This document shows, one piece after another, positions 3,934 to 62,426 of a stretch of DNA of 64,000 nt (position 1 is the first letter of the stretch; every line of letters starts with the position of its first letter). The stretch spans positions 124,001 through 188,000 of the forward strand of contig JAGTXK010000091.1 in assembly GCA_019096195.1 (NCBI GenBank), written 5' to 3'. The position numbers and the translations under genes were made by a program. The DNA comes from Boletus sp. NGJ (taxonomy: Eukaryota > Basidiomycota > Agaricomycetes > Boletales > Boletaceae). The notes under the pieces are model-generated. The model saw nothing but the letters and a program-made list of their open reading frames with translations. It ran no database searches and was not told the origin of the DNA.

Positions 3934-4048
3934 GTGAATATCTCCACTGTCCTCATCAACATAACTTTCCAGATGAACATTATCCTCATCCAGACCAAAT
4001 CAATAGACTCAGGGTTTAGGAGGACCTTTCCAATATTTGTAACATGTA

Positions 4049-4255
4049 CAGTGGCTCAAAAAAGTGTCCCAATGTTTGACTATTTTGCAAAGACTTGACA
4101 TTTGCAAAAGAACCAAAAGGTATTAGCCCTAACCCTTGCTGGGCCATTGATAGCCCTAATCCTTGCCCTGAGGATGAGCCCTTAGTCATGTGAGTTGGTT
4201 GTCATGGTACTGAGTTATAGCCATATTAAAAGAATATGTCATTGGGACACTTATT
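4049..4255 (+). repeat. Left terminal inverted repeat of Tc1 A1
   Basis: This arm pairs with about 5,440-5,648 in inverted orientation. The outer end carries CTCAAAAAAGTGTCCCAATG. The inner end (about 4,238-4,258) carries the same motif inverted, CATTGGGACACTTATTTGAC. Each arm therefore has two transposase-site-like motifs facing each other. Confidence 0.88.
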
Positions 4256-4399
4256 TGACCCAAATATTATCAACTATCATTTAGTAAATAACATAAGGTT
4301 CTGATGGATGCTGTGCTTCAACCCTGTCTGATTATGTCACTTACATAACTCCAAATGGTATAAAGAGCAGAGATACCATTCAGCCAACCCTACTTCATT

Positions 4400-5416
4400 A
4401 TGAAATCCACTCCCTCCTCTGCTAGAGCCAATATTCTTTTTCTCTTTGAATCTGGCCTTTCTACTAGGCAAATATCATTCCAAACTGGTCTGGGAAAGTC
4501 TACTGTGGCCAGGGTTATCAAGGAGATCCACCCAGGCAAGGAAAACATCAAATTAGAATGTCCTTCTAAACTTTCTCCTACTGATAAAAGGAGAATTGTC
4601 TCTAGTATTACCTCTGGCAAAGTTGAAAATGCTGTCCAGGCTACCCATCTCATCAATTCTGCTCTCTCTTCTCCTGTCTCTGCTCAAACTATTAGGAATG
4701 TTCTCAAGTCTGCATCTCTCAAGGCTGTAGTCAAGAAAAAGAAGCCACTCTTGTCTATGAAGCATAGGCAACATAGGCTAGCCTTTGCTCTCAAGCACCA
4801 ACATTGGACTGTGGAGGACTGGACTAGGGTTATATGGTCAGATGAAACCAAGATCAACAGGATTGGGTCAGATGGAAGGAAGTATGTATGGAAATTGGCA
4901 GGAAAGTCTTTGCAAGACAAGAAAGTTCAGGGAACAGTAAAGTTTGGAGGAGGTTCCTTGATGGTTTGGGGATGCATGAGTTGGAGTGGAGTGGGGATTC
5001 TTGCAGAGGTTGAAGGGAGGATGAATGCTGAGCAGTATGTCTCCATTTTGGAGGATAATCTGCTTCCTTCTATGGAAAATTCTGGAATTCCTGAAAAGAG
5101 CATTATCTTTCAACAAGATAATGACCCCAAGCACACCTCTAAAAGAGCCAAGGAGTGGCTGGAATCTCAAGGGATCAAGCTTCTTGACTGGCCAGCACAA
5201 TCTCCAGACCTTAATCCCATTGAACATCTCTGGCAAATCCTCAAAAAAAAACTCAATAGCTATACAACACCACCAAAAGGAGTATGGGAGCTTTGGGAGA
5301 GAATTGAAGTGGAGTGGGGGAAGATAGAGGTTGAGGAGTGTCAAGGATTGATAGAGAGTATGGCTAGAAGACTAGAGGCAGTGATAAAAGCAAAGGGAGG
5401 GCATACAAAGTACTAA
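4400..5416 (+). CDS. Tc1-family transposase (DD34E), intact 338 aa
   Basis: It catalyses cut-and-paste transposition at TA sites. The N-terminal half has paired helix-turn-helix segments (about residues 10-40, GLSTRQISFQTGLGKSTVAR; and about 60-110). The DDE core shows the first Asp in VIWSDETKINR, the second in [12 protein letters not shown], and the Glu in [11 protein letters not shown]. Exactly 34 residues separate the second Asp from the Glu, as in the Tc1 group. It ends AKGGHTKY, the usual end in this family. The ATG follows the left arm by about 150 bp and is the first in frame. No stop or frameshift is visible, so the enzyme may be functional; expression cannot be judged from sequence. 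Confidence 0.93.
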   Translation: MKSTPSSARANILFLFESGLSTRQISFQTGLGKSTVARVIKEIHPGKENIKLECPSKLSPTDKRRIVSSITSGKVENAVQATHLINSALSSPVSAQTIRNVLKSASLKAVVKKKKPLLSMKHRQHRLAFALKHQHWTVEDWTRVIWSDETKINRIGSDGRKYVWKLAGKSLQDKKVQGTVKFGGGSLMVWGCMSWSGVGILAEVEGRMNAEQYVSILEDNLLPSMENSGIPEKSIIFQQDNDPKHTSKRAKEWLESQGIKLLDWPAQSPDLNPIEHLWQILKKKLNSYTTPPKGVWELWERIEVEWGKIEVEECQGLIESMARRLEAVIKAKGGHTKY

Positions 5417-5439
5417 ATTGAAGAATAGAAATGTTGCTC

Positions 5440-5648
5440 AAAAAAGTGTCCCAATGACATGTCACTTTAGTATGGCTATATCTCAGTGCCATGACAACCA
5501 CATTATATGACTAAGGGCTCATCTTCAGGGCAAGGAGTAGGGCTATCGATGGCCCAGCAAGTGGTTAGGGCTAATACCTTTTGGTTCTTTTGCAAATGTC
5601 AAGTCTTTGCAAAATAGCCAAACATTGGGACACTTTTTTGAGCCACTG
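5440..5648 (-). repeat. Right terminal inverted repeat of Tc1 A1
   Basis: This is the inverted partner of the left arm. It begins about 24 bp after the transposase stop with the inner motif (about 5,431-5,452) and ends with the outer motif in opposite orientation next to the TA duplication. Confidence 0.88.
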
Positions 5649-5871
5649 TATGTGTATGTTTATGTAACTGATAGGTGATCACAAGGTTCTGTCAATCCTT
5701 CTGTCATAGAATCATGTTGTCCCCATTATTATTTCAAAGATCCACTCCTCATACTGTGCATGGATGATGATCCAAATATGGTATAGAAATATCCTCAGCA
5801 GGATCAGATGGAAGTGAGTTTTATATAGTATCATCAAGAAAGGATAGTAATCGATGTTTAAAATCCATATC

Positions 5872-24449: not shown

Positions 24450-27206
24450 TTGAAGGTTAATATCTAAGAATCACCCCCTTGCAATCGACTTTCCCTACAA
24501 CATAAAATTCTGGTCAGTCACAATCAGTGATTCCACTATTACTTGGAACATCTAAGGACAAGCAGAGATTAAAGGAAAAGAAGAACCAGCAAACTGGGAA
24601 AATCCCAACTATCAGAATGGTTGGCACAACCCAGATTTTGACAATGTGAATGTCTGGAATGCTCAACTCCTAGAAATTGAGCAACCAGACCATCATATGC
24701 TCAATTGGATTGATTGGATATTCATCATCTCTCTCTAACTTTGTTAGCCAGACTGGAGACAAATACCATCCAGTCCTTGCTAGTCTTATATCTGAAGTAA
24801 CCCCTGTTATTGAAGAAGCTAAACAGCCAGCAGACACTTGGAAAATAGACTCCACAATAGAGATACCTGGACTTGATCTTTAATAGAACTACCTAGTTCT
24901 TGTTCCTTGATTTCATTTCACTTGTAATCTACTCTAAGGACTTTCTCACCTGATATGTTGTCCTTCAACCCCCACAATTTCAACTCAAACCAGTTTCTGC
25001 AAAACTTATATGCATGTGCAGATCATGATGTGCAAATGGCATTAATAGCCACACAGTTTGAACTGTGGTTAACCATGCAACCACACTAGAATAAGCTCTT
25101 AATACAGCACAGGCACAGCTTGCTAAAGTGCCAGCTATAACCACATCATCTAAAGCAGCAAAGAAGATTAAAATCTTCTCTGATTCTGGTGAATTCAAAG
25201 GAGAGATCAATAAGTTCAAAGATTGATGGCTTAAGATAAAGACCTACATTGTCATCAATCCAGAAACAATTCTCCCTAAGTCATATAAGGCAGTCATTAC
25301 TGTCTTATTCTGTATGATAGGACAATGAGCTGGAAACTTTGCTACCACTTGTTTAGAAAAGGGAACAGCTTATCTATGGGACAAACTAACAGTGGATATC
25401 AAGAAACAGTTCTGTTCCACAGCCAAACCAGATTGGGCTCTAGAAAAGCTCTAGAAGCTCAAACAAGAAAACACTTGCACTTGTGACTGAATTGACCAGT
25501 TTAATGAACTCTATAAGGATGCTGACATCAGCAAGATACATGGTATAAACATCATTGAGCACAATGTGAACCCTGAGATCTGTGATTAAGTAATTAGATA
25601 GGGCAAATGAAGCACAACAGATGTCTATGTGTATCTCAAAGCAATTAGAGCAGTTGAAGAAACCATCAAAATCATGGATGCCTTCACAAAAGGACAGAAT
25701 TTGCTTTATCTAGTTCCTCCTATCTTCCTAGACTATCATCACACAACCCTAATGCAATGAATTTTGATTAGATCTATAATAGTTTTGAAGACAAAGAAAA
25801 ACACAACATTGATGCATTTGCTAAGAAATCAGCCAAGAAATGGTTCACTGGATGCTTCAATTGTGGTGGAACTGGACACATGGGTAAAGATTGCAAGAAA
25901 CTCTCCACCAAATGTTGTGAATATAATTGGTCTAGAGGAGATCACAAGAAGACTTGCTCCAAGTTCTGAAAAACTCACACTATAGATGAAGAACTCACTA
26001 ACTGTAAGAGAAAAGCCTGAGCAACTTAAACTGGCTGGGTGTCCAAGTTGCTAATCTATCTAATCTTGTATTTAGTCAATCATCTAGCCTAAATTATCAC
26101 AGCCAAGTGGGGCCTTTAATTGATTTGAAGCTCAGCTGAGGCTCTAAACCAGTACTTAATTCCACTTCACACTTATCTTCAATCCCAGAAAATGCTAGAA
26201 TTTGCACGTTGAATAATTGCAATATTATTCTATCTATAGAGATTGCCCCTACTTGTTATTGGAACAACTCATGAAAACCAAAGTTCTTTTAGATAGTGGA
26301 GCCAATACTATCTATATCAACAAGTCATATATAAAGAAGATCAAACTTCTGCTTTTTTCTCTATCCAATTCTATACTGATATATAATGTTAATGGAACAT
26401 GTAATGCTACTAGATCTATCACCCATTGTGCTGAGATCATTATTTAGTTTCAGAATTATTGTAAACAAGTCACAGCAGAAGTAACAAATCTAGGAAAGAA
26501 TTAGATGATTCTAGGATACATGTGGCTTAGTAAACATGATTCTAAGATTGATTGGACTTCTGGAAAAGTCCAAATGACTCAATGCCCCTGGATTTGTCAA
26601 ACTTTAAAAGGAAAATCCCCTTTTACATGCCAGATTAAATCTAAAAAGCATGATTCCCTAGCACATATTTTCACTATAAAACATGATGAATCTACCATGA
26701 AGAAAGATCTGAAACCAGAGGATCTCATTCTGAAACAATACCATAAGCATATGAGAGTATTCTGTAAGAAAGAAATAGAATGAATGTCTATATGAAACCC
26801 TTGGGATCATGCCATAGATATCAAAAATACCTTAAAACCAAAGAAAGGCCATTTGATATCCCTTTCACTTGAAGAACAGATGGAAGTATTAGATTTCATT
26901 GATGATCAGTTATCCAAAGGATACATTAGACCTTCTAAATCACTGCAAACATCATCCATGTTTTTTGTACCTAAGAAAGATGGCCAAAAACAAATGGTAC
27001 AGGACTACCAATATCTAAACAAACACATAATCAAGAACCATTATCTGCTCCCCTTGATCTCATAGCTTGTAGACAAGCTCAAAGGATCAAAATGGTTTAT
27101 AAAGATAGATCTTCACTGGGGATATAATAATGTTTGCATCAAAGAAGAAAATGAAAAGCTGCCTTCATATAGTATGTTACAGAGGCACCTTTGAACCCCT
27201 TGTAAT

Positions 27207-30200
27207 TAGTGTTGGAAAATTTCAGTTCATTTCAGTTCTTCAGAGATTTTCTTCAACTCTAAACTGCACTTCCATTCACATTCATGCCAAGTGTTCAAGT
27301 TTAAACACATTCAAACTTCGAACACATGATATTTTGTCATAACAATACACAAGACAACTACTACTTGCATATAGCATCAGACTCAGAGTCATTGTGAAGC
27401 TGAGAGAACTGATCAAAAAGTGCTGCCTTACAAGCATGAGACTCTGCCTCAGTTGCTGCCTGAATGTGTCCATTCCAATAACCACTTTTTAGCAGTTGTT
27501 GGGCTTCAAACATTTCAGAAGCAATCTGGTTGCAGCATGAAGTCCCAGTAAGTCCACCAAATAAGAATGCTTGTTCCAAAGGTATTGCAGAACCAGGGAT
27601 GGCCAGATAATCACATGCCATATGAGAGAGTGTTGAATACTGGCATGAGCATTCCTGTATACTACTGTTAAGCAGATATACACCAGTGCATTGTGAGTGA
27701 AAGGTACTCACCCCACCACTGCATAATATCACCAGCTTCCTCCTCAAGTGGACTCATTAAGTACAAAGTTAATTCAGTATGGGGATTAGTGGCATGTTTT
27801 GCCTGCTTCTCTGCTTGGATTGCTTGCTGCATCCCTGCATGACCATATCACATAAATCCTGAGATGAACTGCTTGACTAGCAAGAAACAACCAAAAATGA
27901 TGACTCATCAGTGCTCTGATACCACTTTTCCAGATTATTCAATCCTGCCGGAAGATGTGCCACAAGGGTCTCATAATCTAAGTTGTCACGTGAATCCTCC
28001 CAGCTCTGTGAGAGAAATTTGAGTACTAATATAGAATGTGACAAGGATGGGTGGGTTGTTACTGAAAAAGTCTAAGTTGCAGAAGCTGGTTTCTAGTTGA
28101 TAGTGGTCATTGACATTAAATCTGTGGCTGCAGTGACAAGATAATTGATTCTTACTAACCTGTAGTATTCAATGTATATGTACAAGATGTTCCCACTTAG
28201 TTAATGAAAGTTTATAGTTGGCATATTGCTTTCATTTGAGAGTGGGAATTTTGTCACTATCATCAGCTTCCTTAATAAAGCATGTAATGGCCTATTTACA
28301 GAGTAAGCAAATAATCAACAGAACTGCCAAATTGTAAATACCTTGCAAAGCTTCAAGAAACATTCCAAACATGTATATAATGATGTCTAGCAAGTATGAA
28401 TCCACTGAAGCAACTCAAGCTCAGACACATTCACCTCCCTATATGTTCCATAGAAGAAGGCCTGGGTCTGAGGAGATTTGAGAACCTTAACTTGTGATGA
28501 TCACTTTGTGCTATACCTACTGTAAGAACAGTAATCATATCTGTGTGATTAATGCCAGTGCTTTTCCCAGTGCATTGGCAACATCAAAATTCTCACCTTC
28601 AGATTTGAAGTCAAGTTCACATGCCCATAACTTCTTTACAAGCTGCCAGCCCAAAGTTGGGAAGATATCATTCATGAAATGTTCAGCAGCAAGATAAAGG
28701 GCATGTTCCATGCACTGGATGTGCCACCTTTGATAACTTTCAATGCCAGTCTTAGGAACATTCTCTGCAAATGAGTGGATTGCAGTATTGTTATTTGATG
28801 CATTGTCTGCAGTGAACCATCTAATCTATAGATATTATAAGCTCATTTAAAGGATTGGGAGGGGGGGCAAGAACTCAAAAGAACTTTACCTTTTTTCTAA
28901 TGTCATAATGACTGACAACACATGTGATAATCTTGGCAATATTAGCACTAGTGTGACTATCATCAATTGGCATGAATGCCAGTTACTCCATATGAAGTTC
29001 CCACTTTTGTAAGTCAGACATAGATATATAGTGTTCTATCACTAACAAATATGGGTCTTGTGTCTCACTGGTCTATGTATTGAAGGTGAATGAAACCTGA
29101 CCCTCAACTCTCTGCACAGAATAAGTGCTTAGAAAGCATGCAATAGATATTGGGTACTTCACTTACCTGAAGCCACTCTTTTATTCGAGATTCAACAAGT
29201 TTGCCCCTTTGAAGAATCTTATTCCAAATCTTCTTGTGATGTGGGATGTCCTTATCAGATAAGGTGGGTCTCATATACTCTAACAAGATAAAAGGCCTAG
29301 TTACTTTACTAATGGTATCAACAAATCACAGATTACCAAATAAAACTCACATCATCCTTCAAAACAATGAGCTCAATAATATAGTCAAGTAGTCCAGTTG
29401 TTGTAAATGCTAGAATCTATGGTTGTGATACAATGTGTGCATCAAGGTTGATTTGACCATTCCTAGAACTAGATCAACATGGTATTGACAACACCAAAAA
29501 TCACATACACTTTATCATCCTTGGTAATGTATGAGGATGAAGTGGTATTCCTGCCTTTTCACAGCAAGTCTGGTAGATAGTAACATGATCCTGGTGCCTA
29601 ATCCATGTAATACACCAGTGGATAACATTCATGATCAAATGGCATGTTTGATGAACTGTGCAATGTGGAGTTATAAGCTTGTTGTAACACTCCCAGTGAG
29701 AAATGAGTGTTTAGCTGTCAATATCTTAAAAAAAATCAGATGACACAGAAACATACTTGGATACACTATACCAATGTTTCTTCTCTTTGTTCTTCATTAC
29801 AGTATTAGTAACCATATTTGAAGTGAAAATGGTTTGAATGTCTGCCATATGATTACTTTTAGATCAGACCATAGCCTATCAAATATTAGAAACTGTTAGA
29901 TTAATAGTGGTCAGAACCTACCACACAATCAACATCATCCAGTGCCACAGCTGATATCTGACTGCTCTCACTCACACAATTGTCATTTATCATGTCAGTG
30001 ACTCCAAGACCATCAATATCAGTGTCCATAGAAATATCTGCAGCATCACTGCTGCCATTTCCATAAGACCAGTTTCATGGGACTGACTCATCTTGGCTAC
30101 TGAGTTCAGCTGAGAATGCCTTGCACTTGCCAGCATGAATGGCATTGGCAGGATTAGTTAAGCGATGTGAAGCGGAACTTGCTTAGGGTGGTGCTGACCA

Positions 30201-31059
30201 GTAATCTTGGCTGCCAGTCGAGGGATACAAATTTTGAGAGGGCTGCCACCCATAGCAGAATTAGACTTGGAGATGACAGTGGGAGCAAGAGCAGTATGGT
30301 CATCAACATCATGATACCATTGGATCTTGCTTGCATCTAGTAATTGGCCATTATGACCAACAGCACATCCAGCAGGATTGTTTGACATCATAATGATGGA
30401 ACATGTATCCACATCAAAGGCTTGCTTTTATATATATTCCTACCATCTGATCCTGAAGATCACAACTGGCATCTATTCTTAAATCCCAGGGTCTGAGGAG
30501 GCATGAGAAGAAACAGCAAGCTGGGCATGCTAGCTTCTAAGTATCATCTCTAGAACACCTTTAGAAAAATGCCATTTATGACCCAGCTTTCAAGGACACC
30601 AGTGTGGTTTCAGGCTGATTTATATGACATATACTATGCAATGGTCTTCTTTATTTAGTTGAAGCAGGGCAAAGCAAAGGAAGAACAGAAGGGCAGATGA
30701 ATTCTGTATGCAGTCACAGCAGTTGAGTTGCAGGATTCAGCACAAATATTCAGAGTGCAGCTGTGCAATTCTTCAAACACTTTGCATGATTACTGTAGTA
30801 ATTTTAAGCAAAGGCCTTCAACAGTGTGTAACTCTGGTAATAAATCACTCTGATGTTCTGAAAATAGGCATAAACATATACAGGTCCAAACATGTTCAAA
30901 CATGTTCTGAACTGACTGTAAAGGTTCAGAAGAAGGTGGATGTGAACCTGAACTGTGGTTCAGTTCAGCCCCCCACACTAAACCTGCACTAAATCTAGTG
31001 TTTGGTCCATGAAGAGTCCAGTTTGAACCAACATTCAGAACTGAACACATCCACCACTA
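27207..31059 (-). mobile_element. hAT transposon with 8-bp target duplication
   Basis: This 3,853-bp element has TAGTGTTGGA at the left end and, inverted, TAGTGGTGGA at the right. It is flanked on both sides by CTTGTAAT (27,199-27,206 and 31,060-31,067), a perfect 8-bp duplication as hAT elements make. The Gypsy RT reads across the site once the insertion is set aside (FEPLV before, MYFGLCN after). Both subterminal zones are rich in GTTCA/TGAAC repeats (27,220-27,310 and 30,890-31,050). Confidence 0.92.
27361..30412 (-). pseudogene. hAT transposase, broken, multi-exon
   Basis: The minus strand gives an N-terminal piece (30,158-30,412) with IQWYHDVDDHTALAP, a middle piece with RPTLSDKDIPHHKKI (29,104-29,286), and a C-terminal dimerisation piece (27,361-27,747) with MACDYLAIPGSAIPLEQAF followed by LFGGLTG. 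The last matches the hAT C-terminal domain (L..IP.S....ERAFS.GG). The catalytic middle is interrupted by stops and possible introns. It is unlikely to be active. Confidence 0.75.
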
Positions 31060-31549
31060 CTTGTAATGTATTTTGGATTGTGCAACTCATCAGCTACTTT
31101 TCAAACCACGATGAATGAGCTATTCTCAGATATGCATAATGTCATAGTTATCTACATTGATGATCTCATGATCTTTATGAAAATAAATAACATCATAAAA
31201 CATAAAAGAATTGTGAAGAAAGTATTGCAGTGCCTTGAAGACAATGATCTATTTGCAAAATCAAAGAAATGCACCTTCAGTGTTCAAGAAGTGGAATTCT
31301 GTGGCATAATAGTATCTAGAGATGGAATCACAATAAACAATAGTAAAGTCAAAGCCATTAAGAAATGGCTAATTCCAAAGAATGTTAGAGGTGTATGCAG
31401 TTTTTTTGGTCCAGCAAACATCTATCAAAGATTTATTGAAGAATATGCCTGAGTGACATGACCTCTAAATGATCTTACAAGGAAGAATGTACCTTTTGAA
31501 TGGAAAGAGGCATCACTACCTTGAAGGCACACACCATCAGTTTGAAATC

Positions 31550-32915
31550 TAAACTGATTATGCTAATCTTCGATGATTTATGAAATAAATTGAAAAGAGA
31601 TAGAAGATCTATTAAATAAAAAACTGTTTGGATTCATAGAAGTAGAAGTAAATTGTCCTAAAGTTGTATTACATCCCAATATTACAAATTAGAAGAGAAG
31701 TAAAAAACAATTTAAGAACTTTCGCTCCTGTTGGAATATTTATAGATTGATTTCATATCGAGGAAGTAAAAACTGCTATGAAATTGGGTTACAAAATTAA
31801 AATAATATCTGGTTATTTATTTAAAGAGGCTGAAATTTTTACAGACTATGTGGATGATCTATATAGAATAAAGGTTCATGCTAATAAGAATAAAGACCCT
31901 ATTTGGAGATTAATTAGTAAAAACTTAATGAATAGTTTATATGAAAGATTTGGAATAGATCAATATTTACAAAATAATGTTGTAATTGATAAAAATGACT
32001 TACAATTGAAAACTCTTTTTGATAAAACTGAAATTAGTGATATAATTGAATTGGATGATAAATTGTTAATTCAATATTTACCAAAAAGTATTGATTCTTA
32101 TTCATATCAAGAAAACTTAGATATTAATATATCAGTTGTAATTGCTTCCTCCATAACAGCATATAGTAGAATAATTATGAGTAAATATAAAATAATGATA
32201 ATTATAATTTACATTATACTAATACAGATAGTTTATATTTAAGTTTCAATTCAAATAAAGAAAAAATAAAATTTGATAGTAAATATGTAGATCCTTTGAA
32301 ATTAGGATACTTAAAGATAGAAAACCCTAAAGTAAACAGAAATTACATTCCATATGAAAGATTCTATTTCTTAGGACCTAAGTTTTATGTAGCAATTTTA
32401 GAAAATAAAATTGATTTCTCAAGTAAAACTAAAATAAAAGGTTTACAAAAAGCATACAGATCTTTAATAGATGAAAATAAAATAAAATCATTATTACAAT
32501 ATAATAGAAAACCTATAAAAATAGAAACAATGAAATGGTATAAACAATTATCTTGCTCAACAATTTATATTGAAAATAGACCTTATAATTTAGATATCTC
32601 AAATTTCAAAAGATCTTTGTTTTATAAATATTATAATCCTGAAAATATTTTATTAACTAATACAAAATCAATTGTAATGAAAGATAATAAAATTAGTTCA
32701 TTTGGAAATTTTATTGTTAAAGATAATGTAATATATGAAGATATATCAAATATAATGTAAGCTTTTTTCCCCTAAATATAATGTCTTTATTTTATATATC
32801 ACCCCTCATATGGTTAATTATTTTTAAAGGGGGGATAAATTTACTTTATATCCAGTTTTTCCTTATTTTAAAGAAAAAAAGCAGAGATAAAACATCTTTA
32901 AAATCTCTCTATACA
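31550..32915 (+). pseudogene. Family B DNA polymerase fragment from a mitochondrial linear plasmid
   Basis: A very AT-rich block has two frames (31,778-32,242 and 32,296-32,760) of a protein-primed family B polymerase. Visible are AMKLGYKIKIISGYLFKEAE, LMNSLYERFG (K..NS.YG motif), YTNTDSLY (the YxDTDS metal motif, read near 32,205-32,240), and a C-terminal part with YFLGPKFYV. This palm-to-thumb order matches the dpo gene of fungal mitochondrial plasmids. An in-frame TGA at 31,748-31,750 falls where a Trp fits (IDWFHIEEV), as expected of the mitochondrial code. Base composition differs sharply from the flanks, which are Gypsy on both sides. It cannot be expressed as a nuclear gene. Confidence 0.85.
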
Positions 32916-33320
32916 CACAGATCTTAACTGTCAGCAAGCCCAATGGGCACACATTTCAATTATACATGGCTTTATAAGGCAGATGCCACTATGGAAAAAG
33001 CCAATGCTTTATCTTGACATGAAGACCACACTATTGGAATAGAAAATGAAAATACTGGAGTGCTAATCATTCCTCTTGAGCAGATTAGTGTTACAGAAGT
33101 TCATATTGCTATGAAGTCTAATTTCATCATTAACAAAATCAGAAAAGCCATACATTTACTCAAAGAATCTGACATCACCACCATATATAACAAGTACAAC
33201 ATTGACGCACACACAGATGAACTTCTTCATGACAAAGAAGGAAAGATCTACACAGCCTCCCCTCCAATTCCCCCTATTCCTCCAATCCTACAACCATTTC
33301 TGCCTCTTTTATGTCAATAA

Positions 33321-34000
33321 GTTCACTGACCATTATTCCTTTTCCACTGCTTTTTAATGCCACTGTGCATCTAGCCAACTCTCTTCTGCATCCATAACAT
33401 TATTCTTGTGACTCATTGTTCCCCTTCCCTTTGCAACAGCCTTCTAGTCACATCGCTGTGTATCCTACTACTACAGTATATGCTATGAATCCGAAGATTG
33501 CTCCACACAGATCCAGAGAATGAGCCACAAACAGTGCCACATGACTCTCCTTCCCATCCACAACATTATTCTCATAACTTACTGCCAATGTAAATCTCTC
33601 CATCCCTTCTGCATACAACACCCAGACCATCCTCACACACTCAATGACAATCTAAGTAATACATTCTCCCTTAATTGCATTTTTTTTAATATGCTAGTAT
33701 GTTGAATCACTATGGCAGTACTACTTAATATCTTAGTTAGATGCTACTTTTTGGCTGATAAATCACTTTTGTTCTTTTCATGTCAGGATCATACTTTTAA
33801 TATAATTTGTGGTGCTTTTGTGTTTTTGTGCTTTTCATAGTGGTGACATGACACAAAGCTGCTAAAAAGCCCAAAAAGTACTTTATGAATTTACTGATGT
33901 CAGTCCCATTACTCGTTATACATCACAAACTCCATAATAGATTTAAGCAAAGTTAGGATACTTTGCACTTCGGGCACATCTATATGAAATGGTCTATATA
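33321..34000. other. No recognisable gene
   Basis: CT-rich then AT-rich spacer between the Gypsy end and Tc1 A2. A phrase of about 40 bp containing ACATTATTCT is loosely repeated at about 33,385-33,420 and 33,555-33,590. No coding signal is supported. Confidence 0.4.
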
Positions 34001-35561
34001 CAGTGGCTCAAAAAAGTGTCCCAATGTTTGGCTATTTTGCAAAGACTTGACATTTGCAAAAGAATCAAAAGGTGTTAGCCCTAATCCTTGCCCTGAAGAT
34101 GAGCCCTTAGTCATGTGATTTGGTTGTCATGGCACTGAGATATAGCCATATTAAAATGATATGTCATTGGGACACTTATTTGACCCTGATATTATCAACT
34201 ATCATTTAGTAAATAACATAAGGTTCTGATGGATGCTGTGCTTCAACCCTGTCTGATTATGTCACTTACATAACTCCAAATGGTATAAAGAGCAGAGATA
34301 CCATTCAGCCAACCCTACTTCATTATGAAATCCACTCCCTCCTCTGCTAGAGCCAATATTCTTTTTCTCTCTGAATCTGGCCTTTCTACTAGGCAAATAT
34401 CATTCCAAACTGGTCTGGGGAAGTCTACTGTGGCCAGGGTTATCAAGGAGATCCACCCAGGCAAGGAAAACATCAAATTAGGATGTCCTTCTAAACTTTC
34501 TCCTACTGATAAAAGGAGAATTGTCTCTAGTATTACCTCTGGCAAAGTTGAAAATGCTGTCCAGGCTACCCATCTCATCAATTCTGCTCTCTCTTCTCCT
34601 GTCTCTGCTCAAACTGTTAGGAATGTTCTCAAGTCTGCATCTCTCAAGGCTGTAGTCAAGAAAAAGAAGCCACTCTTGTCTGTGAAGCATAGGCAACATA
34701 GGCTAGCCTTTGCTCTCAAGCACCAACATTGGACTGTGGAGGACTGGACTAGGGTTATATGGTCAGATGAAACCAAGATCAACAGGATTGGGTCAGATGG
34801 AAGGAAGTATGTATGGAAATTGGCAGGAAAGTCTTTGCAAGACAAGGAAGTTCAGGGAACAGTAAAGTTTGGAGGAGGTTCCTTGATGGTTTGGGGATGC
34901 ATGAGTTGGAGTGGAGTGGGGATTCTTGCAGAGGTTGAAGGGAGGATGAATGCTGAGCAGTATGTCTCCATTTTGGAGGATAATCTGCTTCCTTCCATGG
35001 AAAATTCTGGAATTCCTAAGAGAGCATTATCTTTCAACAAGATAATGACCCCAAGCACACCTCTAAAAGAGCCAAGGAGTGGCTGGAATCTCAAGGGATC
35101 AAGCTTCTTGACTGGCCAGCACAATCTCCAGACCTTAATCCCATTGAACATCTCTGGCAAATCCTCAAAAAAAAAACTCAATAGCTATACAACACCACCA
35201 AAAGGAGTATGGGAGCTTTGGGAGAGAATTGAAGTGGAGTGGGGGAAGAGGTTGAGGAGTGTCAAGGATTAATAGAGAGTATGCCTAGAAGACTAGAGGC
35301 AGTGATAAAAGCAAAGGGAGGGCATACAAAGTACTAAATTGAAGAATAGAAATGTTGCTCAAAAAAGTGTCCCAATGACATGTCACTTTAATATGGCTAT
35401 ATCTCGGTGCCATGACAACCAAATCACATGACTAAGGGCTCATCTTCAGGGCAAGGATTAGGGCTATCAATGCCAGCAAGGTTAGCTAACCTTTTGGTTC
35501 TTTTGCAAATGTCAAGTCTTTGCAAAATAGCCAAACATTGGGACACTTTTTTGAGCCACTG
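34001..35561 (+). mobile_element. Tc1/mariner element A2
   Basis: This 1,561-bp element has CAGTGGCTC and GAGCCACTG ends and TA duplications at 33,999-34,000 and 35,562-35,563. It is nearly identical to A1; by eye about 1-2 percent of transposase bases differ. Both long arms are present with short deletions, for example near 34,080 and 35,470. Confidence 0.95.
34325..35335 (+). pseudogene. Tc1 transposase A2, frameshifted
   Basis: The frame is the same as A1 up to SGIP at about 35,017, with VIWSDETKINR intact. A one-base loss there shifts the frame through the second catalytic Asp region. An extra A in the A-run near 35,170 restores it for [18 protein letters not shown] four-base loss near 35,248 shifts it again, giving a short wrong tail at 35,272. 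The family end AKGGHTKY is still readable at about 35,310-35,335. The enzyme would lack the QQDND and NPIE blocks, so it is inactive. Confidence 0.92.
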
Positions 35562-35563
35562 TA

Positions 35564-36420
35564 TAAACAGTTTTGGTTGTTACTTACCTCATGGAATCAG
35601 GCTGTGCATCAGGTGGTTCAATGCCTCAGTTGCTGGTGAGACATCATTGGAAATGCAGCTGGCTATGTTGTGCTCAAATACCTCAATGAGAATACCACTG
35701 ATGGTTAGCCTGACTTAGAGAACTTGAACTTGACTACTAAAGAGAAACTGGTGATCCACTTGCTTGCACTTCATGCATTTGCATACAAGGACTTTGACCC
35801 CTCCAACTCCTCAAAAGCATTCTAGTCCCCCCTCATTCTTTCTCTTCTTAAAACAACCCACATGCAAGATATCTTTGGATGGGTAAAGGTTCCAGGGTTT
35901 GATCTCCTGGCAAAATGTAATCATGGGATTAGGGGAGCACTCGCTCTCTGCACCACACTGGTAATGAAATTTTCATTTGTCACCCAGATGCTGACTAACT
36001 AAGGTTTGTTAGCTGAAACATGCATTGAAATTGGCACAAAAGGGATGACTTGAGGTTATCATAAACCAGGAGGTGCAGATAGCACAAGAGCCTGAGGCTG
36101 TTGATGCCCACCCAACACAGGGCATTCAGATAAACTGAAAGCAACCTCAAACTTTGAATCAGACAATAGGAAAGCTAAGCACCAAGGGCAGCACCTTCTC
36201 CCACCAGAACTGGGGTGGTCAAACAGGAGCATACTACTTGTCTATCACAAACCAGAGTCCTGACATGCTGGGAGACATTGTTGCAGGGGTGCTGTTATAT
36301 CTCACTGCCAACGAAAATGATGATGCCCAGTTTGCCTCCATTGTGGCCCCAGACAAGCTCGATCCTAGAGCTTAGATGTGTAAGCACCTACTTGCCTATT
36401 GTTATTACACTGTGAACAGT
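35564..36420 (+). pseudogene. Remnant of an unnamed gene, related to 43.4-51.7 kb
   Basis: Short plus-strand frames (35,580-36,375) show ENLNLTTKEKLVIHLLALHA, a stretch with GIRGALALCTTL near 35,930, and STFSHQNWGGQTGAYYLSIT with SPDMLGDIVAGV near 36,190-36,290. The order and the FS.Q.WG block recall the remnant around the Copia element at 46 kb. The function is unknown. It is broken in several places. Confidence 0.45.
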
Positions 36421-45999: not shown

Positions 46000-46413
46000 T
46001 GACAAAATACCACTAACTCCAGATGGCATTCTGATTACTTGGACATCCAGATAACACCTAGTAGGTGTCTGCTCTAGTCCAGAGCTTCCAGAGCATCAAC
46101 TTCAGAACATTGATTTCCAAAGCACTGTCATATCATATCATAGGATGTCAGGATCAGTAATACACTTTGCCAGATTTCTCTTAGCTATCTTTCCCCTGAC
46201 ACTTATTGAGGTATGAGTGTGCCTCATTTCATACTATATAAACCCCTCATTTCATTCATGGCACCTCAGTTGTTTTAGCCTGTCCCAGCAATAGCTGAGG
46301 TGAGTTATTCCACACTTAGTATTTTCTTCTCTTACCTGTCATAGCTCCAGTCTACTCTGGTTTACATTAGCTCCACTTTGGCTCTGGTACTCCGAGATTT
46401 CAAATTTCTAACA
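46000..46413 (+). repeat. Copia 5' LTR
   Basis: This 414-bp LTR runs from TGACAAAATACC to TTTCTAACA. A TATA-like ACTATATAAACCCC lies at about 46,233-46,246 and probably marks the promoter. Confidence 0.92.
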
Positions 46414-50957: not shown

Positions 50958-51442
50958 TGACAAAATACCACTAACTCCAGACAGCATTCTGATTACTTAG
51001 ACATCCAGATAACACCTAGTAGGTGTCCACTCCAATCCAGAGCTTCCAGAGCATTGACTTTGAATCATTGATTTCCGAAGTGCTGTCATATCATATTGCA
51101 GAATGTCAGGATCAGTAATACACTTTACCACATTTTTCTTAGCTATCTTTTCCCTGACATTTATTGAAGTATGAGTGTGCCTCATCCCATACTATACATA
51201 TAAACCCCTCATTTCATTCATGGCACCTCAGTTGTTTTAGCCCATCCCAGCAATAGCTGAGGGGAGTTATTCCACACTTAGTATTTTCTTCTCTTATCTA
51301 TCGTAGCTCTGGTCTACTCCGGTTTACATTAGGTAAATGACCAGTTGTTTTAGCCTATCCTGGCAACAGCTGAGCTCTGGTCTACTCTGGTTTACATTAG
51401 CTCTGCTTGGCTCTGATATTCCAAGATTTCGAATTTCTAACA
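50958..51442 (+). repeat. Copia 3' LTR with internal duplication
   Basis: This 485-bp LTR is collinear with the 5' LTR but longer. A stretch containing GTTGTTTTAGCC, GGCAACAGCTGAG and TCTACTCTGGTTTACATTAG is present twice (about 51,228-51,330 and 51,342-51,402). A purine-rich GAGTGGGAG precedes it. Confidence 0.92.
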
Positions 51443-55487: not shown

Positions 55488-56299
55488 TACCACCTAATTT
55501 TTTTCTTGTTTCTGTTTTGCTCTAATCTTTGAAATATATGCAGTATTTTGTTTTCATTCATGTGGTCAAAAGTTCTAAAGTAAGTACACTGAAAATATGT
55601 GAAAGCTCCAAAGTAGGTGAACAACAAAGTGTGAAAGTGTGAAAGCAAATGAGCATGAAAGCATGAAAGGGACTTTAAAGATGGCAGATCTACTTCAAAA
55701 GTGGTCAATTGCTTTACAAGCATAATTTTGAAAGTGTGCACAAAGTTCATGAAAAGCTCAGTAAAGTAATTGTAGGATTTGCTAATGTACAAGACTGTAC
55801 TAAGACATGTGAGGAAGCATAGGTATGTACAAATGAGGAAGTCAGAATACTATAACAAGGAAGTTACAAGTCTGAGGGCATGAGAGCATGCTCCAGGGGA
55901 GAATGTGCTGGAGTTGTAGACAGGGGTCTGGAGTTGGACTTGTCGAGTTGTACGAGATATGACAGTCATCATCAAGATGAGCAAACCAATCTCTTAATCC
56001 TCATGCCGAATGTCGGAGGATGAATATCGTGACCTGGGATTAGCACGACTGTCCAGGCTTCTATAGTATAGTCCTACTGTATAGACTCTCTAAATTGAGA
56101 TGAACTTTTTCTGAAAATAAGCACCTTGAGAATTCCAACAAAGCATACAGTATACAACAAGAGCACAGACGAGGGATAACGATAACCTGATGCATACAAT
56201 CATGTGAGGATTTGAAAAGAACACGGCACTATTTTCTATCATGCAGGTATGTCCGAGTCCTCCTGAAGGACCTGGAGTAGTGGTGACGAGAACGAAAGC
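55488..56299. other. Spacer between transposon region and gene island
   Basis: The left half (55,500-55,760) is AT-rich with scattered GTGAAAG/GCATGAAAG repeats. The right half gains CpG and probably holds the 3' untranslated region of the next gene, which is transcribed toward it. No gene is supported. Confidence 0.5.
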
Positions 56300-58253
56300 T
56301 CATTCTCCAGCACCGACGCTACTGCCACTAGCAACTGTAGCAGCATATTCCTGTTTCACGCCATCCCAGCCTTCAAACCAAGAGGGGGGTCGGCTACCGG
56401 GTGCCCAGCGTGCCCAACGTGGAGTGGTGGCATGTGAGGTGCGTAAAGCAGGGTTGCTAAAAGATCAAATGTAAGCGAGCAAAGTGGATGTCGTCGCAAA
56501 GACATACTTGGCACGTAAAGTTGGACCTAACGCAAGGCGAGCAAAATTGCTCGGGAATAGTGGGTTGCCTGGCGCGCGGTCACCCGCGGGGTCATATGCA
56601 CGCTCGTTCTCGCTGTCCCCAATTTCTGAAGAAGGGACATTGTAGCCAAAGTCACGATATATATATGAGCTGCGAAGAAACGATCAGAATAAGATGTGAT
56701 GTGGCTTGAAGAATGCCTAACCCAGACACAGGCCGCCCAAGGCTTGTGGTAGAACCGTGGGAACTCGACCGAGAGAGACGACGTGTCAGAGGAGAGAGAG
56801 AAAAATCTGGACTGCGGGGTTCGACGCTGTTTCTTCCTGATACCTGCGTGCTGATAGCCGGACTAGGTGGATACGAAAATACATGCGGTGTGACTGCAGA
56901 AGAGGAAGGAACTGGGGACGTGCAAACACGAAGTCCATGAATCTGCGCTGTCAGATCATTATCTGCCTTGATGCGGTCTTCGTCACTGGTGTCAACATTG
57001 GGTTCTTCCTCTTCCTCACGATCCTCGACGATGTCTTGTAATACCTGATCAGCTTGGGACTTGGAGGCAGATTGAGAAAGACCAGCTGGAAGACTGGATG
57101 GTGGTGGGTTGCTTGATCCAGGAGTAGAAGGGGGAGGGTTCGAGGACGAGGTGGCTAAGATTGTTTCAATCGTCAGTGATTGCCCTGGGGACGATGACAA
57201 GGTGACCGAATCCAGGAACTGATCGGGATGATCAGTAATGCCTTGGACATGTTCATCTGCTTGGAGGGAAAGAGCGGACGCGCTATCTTCAGGGTCGATG
57301 AAATAACAAGTATCCGAGTCCTCCTCCTCCAATTCGGGGGGCACGCCTAGCGCGCCTTTCAAGCGTTCCCAGATGAGCTCAGAATGAGCAAGAACGCATT
57401 TTCGGGCTTGTCTCACCCACACAGCGTCGTTAACGGATGAGCGATCAACTTCAGTTAGCCATTGACGTAACGTGTTGAAGGTCCATTGGGCTGGGTCGAT
57501 GGTGAAGGGATTCTGTATCTCCTCATGGGGTGTCTGCATTGGGAAGGTCTGAGCCAAGAGGGAGAATAGTTTCTTCGTTGGAGGGATTGAGAGTAGATGA
57601 GTGGTTTCCGCAGCTCTATCTATAAAAGGCAGGTAGACATCGACTGGCAGGAGAGTGAACGTTGCTGGCGAGGAAGTCGACGCTACCGTGGAACCGGAGT
57701 TGCTCGCATTGGACGGATTTGCTGAACCAGGGACGAAGCGAGGGGCGGACGATTGACGGGCGAGGTCGACGAGCTGTTCTGGTGTAAGATTGGGCTTTGA
57801 GAACGTGGATCCACCGGACGCGGAATGCCGACGAGTAAACTGAGGAGAACTCGGGCGGAGACGAGGGGAGGCAGATGGACTAGAAGCAGTTCTAGTAGAA
57901 GAATTATTCTGCGGACTCGAGGACGAGAGCGAGATGGAGGGTTGGGGGGGAGAAACAGGGGAAAAGGAGGAGAAAGCAAAGCTGAGTCTGTTATCTGCAG
58001 GGGAGGAACCAGAAGTACTGCCGTTACGACGGAGGGATCTGCGATGGTGGGTAGGAGAAGAGGGTAAGTTGGGCAAGTTGAGCGGGGCATTCACAGAGAC
58101 AGAGGACGCGGGGTCGACGACGCGAACGATTGTCAAGGTCGAGGAGGAGGATCGATTGGGATCATGGTTCAGAGCTGCGTTTTTTCCGAGCGGGTCTAGT
58201 GCGCTCACGGATCCCCGTCTTACTGCGAGTCTCCTCGGGGGGCTCTGGGACAT
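56300..58253 (-). CDS. Unnamed 616-aa protein, Ser/Pro-rich, three exons
   Basis: I propose exons 58,253-56,722, 56,669-56,508 and 56,456-56,300, with introns of 52 nt (GTTAGG...CGCAG) and 51 nt (GTATGT...TTTAG). These keep frame to a TGA and give a plausible end (SYIYRDFGYNV ... WFEGWDGVKQEYAA). Without splicing the frame ends in low-quality sequence, which supports the introns. Residues 1-200 are low-complexity Ser/Pro/Arg. A compact region at about 200-325 (VDVYLPFIDRAAETTHLLSI, then WTFNTLRQWLTEVDRSSVND, then CVLAHSELIWERLKGALGVP) looks folded and helical. An acidic, Ser-rich stretch follows. There is no signal peptide or membrane segment. The function is unknown to me. It shares a 192-bp divergent promoter with RPL34. 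Confidence 0.8.
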
Positions 58254-58445
58254 TGTTCAGGACGACACACCGCAGAATCGATTAGTGCCTCCGACCTCAT
58301 CCGGGGTAACTTCCCAATTCAGCTGCGTGACAGCATGTCGCACCTGTCACAGCTCCTCGACTCGGCAGACGCCGAGGCGCTGTACAGTAGCACTTTCAGC
58401 CACAACAGTGTGCACACAGTAAATCATCCAGCCACACCATCGATA
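58254..58445. promoter_or_regulatory. Divergent promoter, unnamed gene / RPL34
   Basis: Only 192 bp separate the two start codons, so both genes must draw on this region. It has CpG-rich composition and a run of CT-rich sequence on the RPL34 side. I recognise no specific factor site. Confidence 0.6.
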
Positions 58446-58899
58446 ATGGCCCAACGTGTTACGCTCCGCAAACGCACCCCTTACAACACCACCTCCAACC
58501 GCCGCCGCATCGTAAAGACTCCAGGCGGCAAGCTTGTTTATCACCATCTCAAAAAACTCCCTACTCAACCTAAATGTGGTGATTGCGGGATCGGATTGCC
58601 TGGTGTACGCTAAAAGCTTTGCTGGGCCTTGTCCGAGGCACTCACATGAGCTCCGTAGGTTCCTGCACTTCGGCCACGCCAGTATGCCACTGTTTCGAAA
58701 CGCATAAAGACCGTCCGTCGCGCGTATGGGGGTTCACGGTGCGGTGACTGTGTGAAGTCGCGGTACGTCCTTTGTCATCTCGCCATCCGTTCCATATTTC
58801 ACCATTCACCTACACAGTATCCTCCGGGCATTCCTGGTTGAGGAGGCAAAAATCGTAAAGAAGGTCATCAAAAGCCAAAAGACCACTACTCGAAAGTGA
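58446..58899 (+). CDS. RPL34: 60S ribosomal protein eL34, three exons
   Basis: A structural protein of the large cytosolic ribosomal subunit. Exons are 58,446-58,604, 58,659-58,762 and 58,818-58,899; introns are 54 and 55 nt with GTACGC/GTAG and GTACGT/ACAG borders. The product is 114 aa, close to yeast L34 (121 aa). It opens MAQRVTLRKRTPYNT and has SNRRRIVKTPGGKL, the first zinc-type pair PKCGDCG, then RPRQYATVSKRIKTVRRAYG, then the second pair SRCGDCVK and the end RAFLVEEAKIVKKVIKSQ. All family landmarks are present, and the second and third exons join in phase only with the borders given. Confidence 0.96.
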
Positions 58900-59302
58900 T
58901 TCGCCTCTCTGCGGATAACACCCGGGGTGTAGTGGCTGCTCGCTGTATATGGCTATTCATTGTGTTTCTCTTTGCGCTTTACGTCAATCCGTACTGCATC
59001 CTATGCAATGGCTCCCTCAACCAATATAATGCCGCTATGCTTCGTCCCTTTGTATCTCATGCCATGACTACAACATCACGTCTTACGTCAGTATCTACAC
59101 GCCAAATTGACAACTACGCGAGATTGTCAAGGTCGTAGCAAGACTTGGCCGAGACAACACTCATCCTACCCAAGTTCGAATGTAACAGAGATTATCCTAG
59201 ACTCCAAGCTCGTTGCACAATAGTTATCCGGGAATCTAGAGATTACTATGAAACAGGATCGTGTAGCTTCTAATGGTTGTCATAAATATCGATAGTCTTC
59301 GT
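58900..59302. other. Convergent intergenic region RPL34 / transporter
   Basis: Both flanking genes end here, so the 403 bp should hold two 3' untranslated regions. I see no additional gene. A frame at 58,896-59,138 only overlaps the RPL34 stop and lacks recognisable features. Confidence 0.6.
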
Positions 59303-61039
59303 CTAGGCGGACACCTGTGTTTCATGCACGCATTCGTCCCCGGGTAGATGGGGGTGCGGATAGGTAAGGGAGACCGTCTCGGTCAGAGGGGAATCAAGCG
59401 AAGGAGGAGGCGAGGGGTAAAGGTCAGTGGGTGATATGATTCCAGCGCGTTTAGTAAATGCCGAAGACAAACTCAGTGGAGAGACATGGGTGGAAAGCTT
59501 CCTCTCTAGAGAGCTCTTGTGCATCTCAGGCGATGGTGCTCGTGTACCGCCAGGAAGCAAGGGAGGGAACTGTGGTCGTGATTTCATCCCAGTTGTGGAT
59601 GACATCCCAGATTTCACCCACGAACTAGGTGATGATGGGGTGCTACCGCTCAACAGTTGCTCATCCGTGCGGTTAGATGGAAGCATCATGTCCCGTGTGG
59701 CCTCTACTCTCCTCACTTTGGTCTCCCCCTTTTCTACATCACTCTTCGCAGAGTTGTACGTATATAAGCCGATGAATGTCAACCCAATCCCGGCGCCTTG
59801 GATTGGGTGGATCCTCTGGTTGAACCATAAAATTGCCATGCATATGACCCATATCCGTTTGACCAAGGAGGCGATGGAATACGTGACTGGAGAGGTGGAT
59901 GACAAAATCACGAATGCGATAATGTTCTGGGCAAAGTGTGCAAGACCATTGACAATGAAGTGGTAGGAGAGGGAGTGCATAGAGGAATGGTCATGATGAG
60001 GATGGACAACATATGTCGGGTTATCAAGGGCAGCGAGGAGACGAGGGAGGTCCGTGAAACTCCAGAGGGGTACCATGAGAGCAAATGCCGCGCTTGATGA
60101 ATAAAACAACAAGTTCACTTTATCAAGCCGATGCGAGGATGCTTGCGATCCAGACGGGATAACCTTCTTGAAAAAGATGTTCGAGCTCACGAAGACAAGG
60201 GCGGAACCAAAGGCACAGAGTAGCCCCATTGGACTTGACGCGGAAGTGTCAAAAGTGGAAGCTAGCATGACTCCGATAGTCAAGGGAAGGAGTGATAGAT
60301 AAGTCTTGGGAGAGTATTTGACCCCAAAGAGAAGTGCGTACGCGGCGACAGTGAAGAGCGGCGACAACGCCTGTGGTATCATGTGAACGATGAAAACGGG
60401 GAAGAAAATGATGTAAGATACCTTGATGGTATGCACGGTGCTAACGTGAATTCTGGAGATTGCCATGCTAGAAAACATATGTCCCCCGACCTGGAATGCA
60501 CCCATAGGCAAGGTGGCTCTCAGTATAGCGACCGTTGGCGAGCGCAACTTGCTGAAATTAATCGCAGGGGTCATGATTAAGAGACAGCAGGAGGCGACAA
60601 AACCAAACTGGATGATAGTGAGAGTGACTGGGTAGCGAAACTGCTCGAGGATCGCTTTCCCAGTGTTTGACGACAGGGCGGATGTTGTGTACCAAAATAT
60701 ACACAAGATAAGAAAGCGGGCGGTGGAAGCGGCGGGAGGTTCTGCTGCAGATGTCCAAGGACCCCGGGTGCGACGGACGAAAGATGAGGGAAAGTGATGT
60801 GCTTCTCGTGCGAATGGCCGGCGGTAAAAAATCCTCTTGAGGTTTTCCGAGATCGAGGAAAAAGAAAACAAAGAACGGTGGCCTAATCGGTTGCTCCAAG
60901 CACCTTGCGACATAGATAATGCTGCTTCAGAGGGATTGCTGGCCTGCCAAGCATGCCCGAAATTCGCGGGATTATCATGGAGGTATTCATCATATGGGGG
61001 ATATCTGACGGGATCGGTAGCAGGGTGATTTTTATGCAT
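59303..61039 (-). CDS. Triose-phosphate-transporter family protein (SLY41-like)
   Basis: A drug/metabolite-transporter-superfamily membrane protein of the TPT group, like yeast Sly41, which acts in ER/Golgi membranes. Exons are 61,039-60,422 and 60,370-59,303. The 51-nt intron (60,371-60,421, GTATCT...CCACAG) is a multiple of three and stop-free, so the unspliced frame is also open, but removing it restores the conserved HTIKALSPLFTV. The product is 561 aa. Residues 1-105 are a soluble N-terminus; 105-400 hold about 9-10 hydrophobic segments with SSNTGKAILEQFRYPVTLT, VFVSSNIFFKK and VTYSIASLVKRIWVI, typical of the family; the last ~130 residues are Ser/Pro-rich and cytosolic in character. Its substrate cannot be told from sequence. 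Confidence 0.92.
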   Translation of the reverse strand: MHKNHPATDPVRYPPYDEYLHDNPANFGHAWQASNPSEAALSMSQGAWSNRLGHRSLFSFSSISENLKRIFYRRPFAREAHHFPSSFVRRTRGPWTSAAEPPAASTARFLILCIFWYTTSALSSNTGKAILEQFRYPVTLTIIQFGFVASCCLLIMTPAINFSKLRSPTVAILRATLPMGAFQVGGHMFSSMAISRIHVSTVHTIKVSYIIFFPVFIVHMIPQALSPLFTVAAYALLFGVKYSPKTYLSLLPLTIGVMLASTFDTSASSPMGLLCAFGSALVFVSSNIFFKKVIPSGSQASSHRLDKVNLLFYSSSAAFALMVPLWSFTDLPRLLAALDNPTYVVHPHHDHSSMHSLSYHFIVNGLAHFAQNIIAFVILSSTSPVTYSIASLVKRIWVICMAILWFNQRIHPIQGAGIGLTFIGLYTYNSAKSDVEKGETKVRRVEATRDMMLPSNRTDEQLLSGSTPSSPSSWVKSGMSSTTGMKSRPQFPPLLPGGTRAPSPEMHKSSLERKLSTHVSPLSLSSAFTKRAGIISPTDLYPSPPPSLDSPLTETVSLTYPHPHLPGDECVHETQVSA

Positions 61040-61311
61040 TCCACGAAGGAAAGAGCGTTCAACGCAAGAGGGTTAGGAAAGGGGATTACGACTCCCGTAC
61101 TATATGCGCAGTGAAACTTGTCAACACTGACCGCAACGTGGAATAAGGTCACGGTGCACAGCCACGGTAACCTCTTCCATTGACCAAAATCACGTGCCAC
61201 AGAAAGACCTACCCTAAAGTAGCCCAGTCCAGTCGGCCCTCAGAGTACCAGACCGCTCGGTATCGAAATCAAGGCCGTCACTGTAGTCGCCATTTCTTCA
61301 AGAACCCCATC
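61040..61311. promoter_or_regulatory. Divergent promoter, transporter / RPS4
   Basis: These 272 bp lie between the two start codons and must serve both genes. A CT-rich tract directly before the RPS4 ATG (61,288-61,311) is usual for ribosomal protein genes. I recognise no defined factor site. Confidence 0.6.
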
Positions 61312-62426
61312 ATGGTCAGTCGTATGTCCTCTGATATAGTTGTGCACACCCCGAGAAACCATCCATCAATGCTTTCTGTCCAAGGGATGGGTGGATGCTG
61401 CCAGCCTTGTTGGGATGGACTGGATATATGCCCTCGCCATGCTCTCGACCTCACAGCATCTGACCCATTCTCTGTTCTGTAGGCCCGTGGACCAAAAAAG
61501 CATTTGAAACGCCTTGCAGCTCCATCGTCATGGATGCTCGACAAACTGAGCGGCACCTATGTGAGGAACCTCAACCATTTCATCATCTCTCAAAACTCAA
61601 ACGCAGGTCACAGGCTCCCCGCCCATCGCCTGGCCCTCACAAGCTCCGCGAGTCCCTTCCCCTTACGATTTTTCTACGAAACAGGCTCAAGTATGCTCTG
61701 ACTGGACGCGAAGTTATTACAATCGTCAACGAACGCCTCATTAAAGTCGATGGAAAAGTGCGCACCGACCCTAACTATCCCACCGGCTTCATGGGTAAGC
61801 AATTCCAGTCCTCTACTCGGATAGTACATTTATATTTGGTCAGATACCATCTCCATTGAAAAGTCGGGCGAGCATTTCCGCCTGCTGTATGATGTGAAGG
61901 GCCGTTTCACCATCCATCGCATCACCCCCGAGGAGGCTACATACAAACTTCTGAAGGTCCGCAAAGTTGCCCTTGGCGCCAAGGGTGTCCCCCACATCGT
62001 CACACACGACGGGCGCACGATCCGCTATCCTGATCCAGCAATCAAGGTCAACGACACTGTGAAGTTTGACCTTGAGCAAAGCAAAATCACCGACTTTGTA
62101 CCCTTCGACACCGGTAACATCGTCATAATCACCGGTGGTCGTAACATGGGTCGTGCAGGTGTCATCGTTCACCGTGAGAAGCATGTTGGAGGTTTCGATA
62201 TCGTCCATGTCAAGGATTCTCTCGATCGTACGTTCGCCACACGGTATGTGACATTACGCGTTTCGTACTCCAGTGAGCTCCAGCTATTGGCGATTATAGT
62301 ATCTCCAACATCTTCGTTATCGGTCAAGGCACCAAGCCTTGGATATCGTTGCCGAAGGGCAAGGGTACTAAACTGACGATTTCTGAGGAGAGAGACCTCC
62401 GGAGGAGACGCGCCGCTGAGCAATAG
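61312..62426 (+). CDS. RPS4: 40S ribosomal protein eS4, five exons, first exon is only ATG
   Basis: A structural protein of the small cytosolic ribosomal subunit. Exons are 61,312-61,314 (ATG alone), 61,483-61,560, 61,614-61,794, 61,844-62,243 and 62,300-62,426; introns are 168, 53, 49 and 56 nt with GT...AG borders. The product is 262 aa, the normal length. Landmarks are [37 protein letters not shown], the S4 RNA-binding part [20 protein letters not shown], the S4e core [19 protein letters not shown], the KOW motif [20 protein letters not shown], and the C-terminus [18 protein letters not shown]. The ATG-only exon is chosen because MARGPKK is the invariant N-terminus and GCCCGTGGA follows a good acceptor. 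Confidence 0.96.
61315..61482 (+). other. Long first intron of RPS4
   Basis: This 168-nt intron (GTCAGT...CTGTAG) is about three times longer than the other introns in this window and directly follows the start codon. A long first intron right after the ATG in a ribosomal protein gene often carries regulatory sequence; that role is inferred. Confidence 0.85.

Follow-up and report, generated by a model that had tools for sequence, protein, structure and literature searches.

According to excerpts of a survey of 7,163 organisms, linear plasmids of fungal mitochondria occur in nuclear genomes, in mitochondrial genomes or in both (Wang et al. 2023, PMC10583447), and the relevant sections of two further papers describe degenerate dpo genes in fungal mitogenomes (PMC4201751, PMC10234125). 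For organelle DNA that is found in nuclei, end joining is named as a route in parts of two other accounts (PMC7037861; PMC2567098).

The locus described here lies in a 64,000-nucleotide stretch of DNA from Boletus sp. NGJ, hereafter called the window, and resembles each of these systems in part. Like the plasmids of the survey, whose excerpts include nuclear genomes, it carries a protein-primed family B polymerase of apparent mitochondrial-plasmid type, but as a short broken piece within a Gypsy relic, a setting not described in those excerpts. With the mitogenome dpo genes, as the sections of the two papers portray them (PMC4201751, PMC10234125), it shares the kind of gene and the same frame-shift decay; however, it adjoins nuclear transposons and genes and not a mitochondrial genome. 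Its nuclear, decayed and repeat-rich character, together with end joining as a possible route, recalls NUMTs as well as organelle DNA in the vicinity of transposable elements, at least as these appear in portions of three reports (PMC7037861, PMC2567098, PMC12125605), whereas its source would be the organelle's plasmid and not the main organelle genome.

We consider it probable that a mitochondrial linear plasmid left this block in the nucleus as a fossil, which was captured at a break into a Ty3/Gypsy element with loss of RNase H sequence and has decayed since. Because plasmid copies occur in many fungi, according to the excerpts of PMC10583447, and dpo fossils have been published, the block is a further case of a known kind. 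Plasmid-to-nucleus transfer is thus an already known, ordinary kind of event, of which the block provides one more example in a neat, nested transposon setting, and it does not alter present views on the transfer of organelle DNA to the nucleus.

The polymerase piece and its decay

The block and the elements around it comprise the following features (window coordinates, strand, description, basis):

25815-27206, + strand: 5' part of the Gypsy relic (tblastn of the L023 reverse transcriptase)
27207-31059, no strand assigned: hAT-type DNA transposon of 3,853 bp inside the Gypsy reverse transcriptase (8-bp target duplication)
31060-31578, + strand: Gypsy C-terminal reverse transcriptase, connection and start of RNase H (RVT_1, Ty3 4ol8)
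31597-31665, + strand: N-terminal end of what survives of the polymerase (by-frame reading; weak BLAST match to L002, E=0.035)
31652-32190, + strand: central polymerase stretch, including motif B and the TGA at 31748 (PF03175; alignment with 21 relatives)
32191-32760, + strand: C-terminal polymerase piece, with motif C, to the stop codon TAA at 32758-32760 (ORF of 189 codons; motif tally)
32761-32915, + strand: AT-rich non-coding tail (G+C 0.247 over 32758-32915)
32916-33317, + strand: probable end of the Gypsy RNase H and linker before the integrase (by eye)

The coding stretch at 31,597-32,757 codes for the C-terminal portion of a DNA polymerase of family B. The Pfam profile PF03175 (DNA_pol_B_2) matches the window at 31652-32242 with E=3.2e-31 (109.2 bits; the cut-off is 25.8), which rules out a chance ORF and bears out the original prediction that part of a family B polymerase, with NSLYERFG and YTNTDSLY motifs, is present. 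This match spans profile positions 288-463 of 468, and motif A, which lies further upstream in the relatives, is absent from the piece. In the PHROGs collection, the first polymerase piece matches the DNA polymerase family phrog_1907 (E=5.7e-12; a further match, at E=0.11, is of unknown function) and the second piece matches nothing; NCBIfam holds no match for either piece, and the PDB none for the first. The C-terminal piece (32191-32760) has no Pfam match of its own, and its best BLAST match among the relatives is L009 (E=5.6e-5).

The block had been placed at 31550-32915. Its right end was read by eye near 32912-32920. The left junction has to be moved to ~31579-31597, because the polymerase reading starts at ~31597 and Gypsy sequence can be followed by eye to ~31578. 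The tail, which shows no notable fold (z=-1.25), is probably plasmid DNA past the stop codon. Inverted pairs of at least 14 nt that would bracket the block as plasmid terminal inverted repeats were not found in 29000-36000, as expected for a fragment. A companion single-subunit RNA polymerase had no match among the ORFs scanned with Pfam, which are part of the window's ORFs. The polymerase block is present in one copy in the window.

The reading of the frames places two frame changes in the polymerase, at ~31655-31670 and ~32185-32195. Motif B reads NSLYE in the block and NSLYG in all 21 relatives of the aligned block, and motif C reads YTNTDS, i.e. NTDS, against the catalytic DTDS that the motif tally returned for 21 of 21 relatives. 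With two frame changes and lost active-site residues, a working polymerase is very unlikely; judged from its sequence, the block is a dead polymerase derivative without function.

The in-frame TGA at 31748 had been taken to occupy a Trp position and, hence, to speak for the mitochondrial genetic code. The codon is indeed present, but a conserved Trp is not: across the 21 relatives, the residues of the alignment column are V F F V W Y S F T Y A V V V T T D S Y T T, with Trp in a single one. A second TGA is found at 31591, at the left junction, and the left Gypsy flank also has in-frame TGA codons. Since Trp is so rare in this column, since CpG loss favours TGA and makes it common locally, and since the Gypsy flank contains TGA codons as well, TGA gives little information on the genetic code at this locus, and the mitochondrial-code argument, as it was put, finds no support.

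Relatives and source of the polymerase

Every fetched polymerase locus was kept for comparison, resulting in 21 relatives (L001, L002 and L004-L022; L003 is the whole record containing L001). They consist of 19 loci from 273 candidate stretches, which were obtained with a three-sequence alignment against genome contigs, as well as one plasmid and one phage record; four further phage matches were left out of the set. The tree was calculated without Polinton and yeast cytoplasmic-element polymerases.

All relatives are distant: where BLAST aligns them best, over 56-200 residues, they share 25-47% identity with the block. The tree places the block with L001, L005 and L006 at a support of 85/79, below the 95/80 mark; it comes with a warning of long branches, and the window row fills 49% of the columns and belongs to no starred set. 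By path length, the rows nearest to the block are L005, L004, L001, L006 and L002. L004, which stems from an archaeal bin and stands outside the four-row group, scores best in BLAST and is also the most similar row of the tree, with 34% identity over 128 columns.

L001, deposited as a plasmid of Peribacillus, combines its polymerase with a single-subunit T7-type RNA polymerase (PF00940, E=1.9e-49); 7 codons of the RNA polymerase and 9 of the polymerase are read otherwise under code 4, and the record has perfect inverted repeats of 712 bp. This layout looks like that of a mitochondrial linear plasmid. In L005 (WBTZ01000171.1, binned as Zoogloea), the polymerase gene lies ~1.4 kb from a cox1-type gene (667.1 bits, just below the model cut-off of 670.75), and L005 therefore probably represents eukaryotic mitochondrial DNA that was sorted into a bacterial bin. 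The polymerases of L005 and L006 are free of in-frame TGA codons. In L003 (NZ_CP110135.1, 1-11389, filed as a Peribacillus frigoritolerans plasmid), the 712-bp inverted repeats are arranged head to head.

Because one member of the four-row group is a mitochondrial linear plasmid and another a polymerase gene close to cox1, a mitochondrial plasmid source is favoured, and the predicted mitochondrial-plasmid type of the polymerase receives moderate support from this grouping. The polymerase could also have come from another protein-primed family B element, such as a Polinton/Maverick, a yeast-type cytoplasmic linear element or a virus: PF03175 takes in organellar and viral polymerases, Polintons and cytoplasmic elements are outside the tree, the best single match is the archaeal-bin L004, and identity to L001 and L005 is just 28% and 30%. 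However, the grouping with a mitochondrial linear plasmid and a near-cox1 polymerase, though at 85/79, the 78% A+T of the block, and the neighbouring ORFs, which among those scanned (part of all) have Gypsy and hAT domains and not Polinton genes, make such a source unlikely.

Viral contigs contained no confirmed match to either polymerase piece, to the Gypsy reverse transcriptase or to two alignments used as queries, genome contigs searched with a single polymerase protein gave none, and neither did the plasmid search with the C-terminal polymerase piece. At the DNA level, 23 plasmid records were matched, of which the 20 listed cover 3-7% of the query; as the DNA is AT-rich, we took these matches as chance.

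The Gypsy host element and its nested hAT transposon

The left flank of the block is a Ty3/Gypsy reverse transcriptase (RVT_1, E=1.5e-16; Ty3 chain 4ol8, E=5.8e-17). These alignments extend to ~31512, and the remainder to ~31578 was read by eye, without a Pfam match. The N-terminal part of the reverse transcriptase is located at 26895-27173 (residues 1-93 of L023, E=3e-13, tblastn) and residues 105-174 of the same reference at 31063-31275; the two parts belong to a colinear reverse transcriptase, 26.9 to 31.5 kb, which is interrupted by a hAT insertion. Further upstream, from ~25.8 kb, a gag zinc knuckle and a protease were assigned by eye; Pfam gave no gag match at 25815-25967 and nothing relevant at 26688-27059. 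The reference L023 (NZ_CP087956.1) is filed as a Wolbachia plasmid and L024 (NZ_CP065945.1) as a Bacillus licheniformis plasmid; the Gypsy-like reverse transcriptase and RNase H frames that both contain are probably eukaryotic contamination.

The termini of the inserted element are TAGTGTTGG / TAGTGGTGG, and an exact target duplication of 8 bp flanks it at 27199-27206 and 31060-31067. hAT elements are marked by 8-bp target duplications and such ends. Restoring the empty site produces a continuous Gypsy reverse transcriptase reading. A hAT dimerisation domain on the - strand (27364-27753) matches weakly, with E=0.0012, below the Pfam cut-off. Because the 8-base word of the target duplication occurs 6 times in the window, counting both strands, the case rests on position and reading frame.

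Gypsy sequence had been noted on both sides of the block. This is confirmed on the left by RVT_1 and 4ol8; on the right, the assignment was made by eye and is backed neither by searches nor by shuffles. Pfam, PDB and plasmid searches of the right flank returned no Gypsy match, Gypsy RNase H and integrase references, run with tblastn on the whole window, found nothing there, and shuffled pieces scored equally well in 676/2000 and 642/2000 trials. A DUF4937 match of the same flank (E=0.0042, below the cut-off) was regarded as chance. If the right flank is Gypsy, it is plausible, by eye, that ~250-290 nt (85-95 codons) of the RNase H are missing, a length that was estimated from motif positions in L023 and L024.

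Base composition and the nuclear setting

The block differs clearly from its flanks in base composition, with a G+C content of 0.217 over 31571-32890 against 0.336 and 0.379, in line with the very AT-rich block that had been predicted (22% against 34-38%). In its CpG content it resembles them: 31575-32915 contains 2 CpG, an observed/expected ratio of 0.13, and the ratio is 0.07 and 0.06 in the flanks of the block, 0.01-0.11 in the surrounding transposon stretches that were measured, and 0.05 over 20-30 kb. The entire transposon part of the window (1-55,000) has a ratio of 0.11, compared with 0.89 for the genes at 56-64 kb, and this contrast between 1-55000 and 56000-64000 is a strong signature of CpG-directed mutation or methylation. 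The polymerase genes of L001, L005 and L006 have ratios of 0.68, 0.77 and 0.82, although these are values of other organisms, from which that of the donor may differ. TpG and CpA are not elevated in the block (1.08 and 0.90).

Genes for the ribosomal proteins S4e and L34e and for a TPT-family transporter are found in the same window, ~25 kb or more from the block. Together with the Gypsy, hAT-type and Tc1-type elements on the same contig, they corroborate the nuclear setting of the original prediction. The genes in this part of the window seem basidiomycete-like.

An assembly chimera, in which reads of a mitochondrial plasmid or of mtDNA were misjoined into a nuclear Gypsy relic, would be consistent with the abrupt composition shift at both junctions and with TpG and CpA at ordinary levels, and mitochondrial genomes can carry degraded, frame-shifted dpo copies, as the relevant section of PMC4201751 describes. 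Yet CpG is almost as scarce in the block as in the nuclear transposons, in contrast to the polymerase genes of the three relatives, and this argues against a recent misjoin, which would be expected to keep a higher CpG content. Moreover, the nearby nesting is finely consistent, as exemplified by the exact hAT target duplication, and Gypsy sequence, read by eye, seemingly resumes to the right of the block about where expected. We therefore regard a chimera as very unlikely. The CpG loss that is common to block and flanks provides a simple check that can assist in telling an old nuclear insertion from a mitochondrial misjoin without reads.

Proposed capture of plasmid DNA by the retrotransposon

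The formation of a nuclear plasmid fossil may have proceeded as follows: First, a plasmid piece of ~1.3 kb, consisting of the 3' part of the polymerase gene and sequence past its stop codon, would have entered the nucleus. Second, this piece would have been joined into a resident Ty3/Gypsy retrotransposon, from which ~250-290 nt of the RNase H region were apparently lost. Most likely, free organelle DNA would have been taken up at a double-strand break through end joining, the route proposed for ordinary NUMTs. After capture, the piece would have decayed through frame changes, active-site substitutions and a CpG loss like that of the host transposon.

Words of at least 8 bases common to the 55-base stretches around both junctions were not found. 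AGATCT and AGAGATA, which the junction stretches have in common, are too short to be called a target duplication or microhomology without the donor. Break capture with target loss is the simplest account, because no inverted pair brackets the block, the junctions share no such word and part of the target has seemingly been lost. The mitochondrial-plasmid source, the Gypsy identity of the right-hand flank and the repair route are what we infer from these data.

That a chimeric Gypsy element captured the polymerase piece and was then copied to several places would suit the shared orientation of the block and the Gypsy pol, and plant organelle pieces may have multiplied with nearby retrotransposons (as stated in part of PMC7037861), but the 64-kb window, in which copies were counted, holds a single one and the seemingly destroyed RNase H would permit movement only with help, which makes this scenario extremely improbable.

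Capture of plasmid DNA as a nuclear fossil could be extended to the proposal that free mitochondrial plasmids, whose linear DNA has ends, regularly supply the filler with which this organism repairs nuclear breaks, leaving many scars in transposon-rich regions. The block would then be one such scar, nested in a retrotransposon that bears a hAT insertion as well; we consider this rather unlikely.

Other elements in the window

Two Tc1-type elements are located at 4042-5655 and 33996-35565. They are 95-100% alike in most of the ungapped stretches compared, and one stretch of 300 nt is 69% alike, probably owing to an indel. The transposase frame of the first comprises 350 codons, that of the second 327 codons with a weak DDE match. 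A PIF1-like helicase piece on the - strand (1088-1453; PF05970, E=1.7e-8) is perhaps Helitron-derived. Direct repeats at 46000-46370 and 50958-51332, which are 88-93% alike and surround a copia-type gag match (PF14223, just below the cut-off), are probably the LTRs of a copia element.
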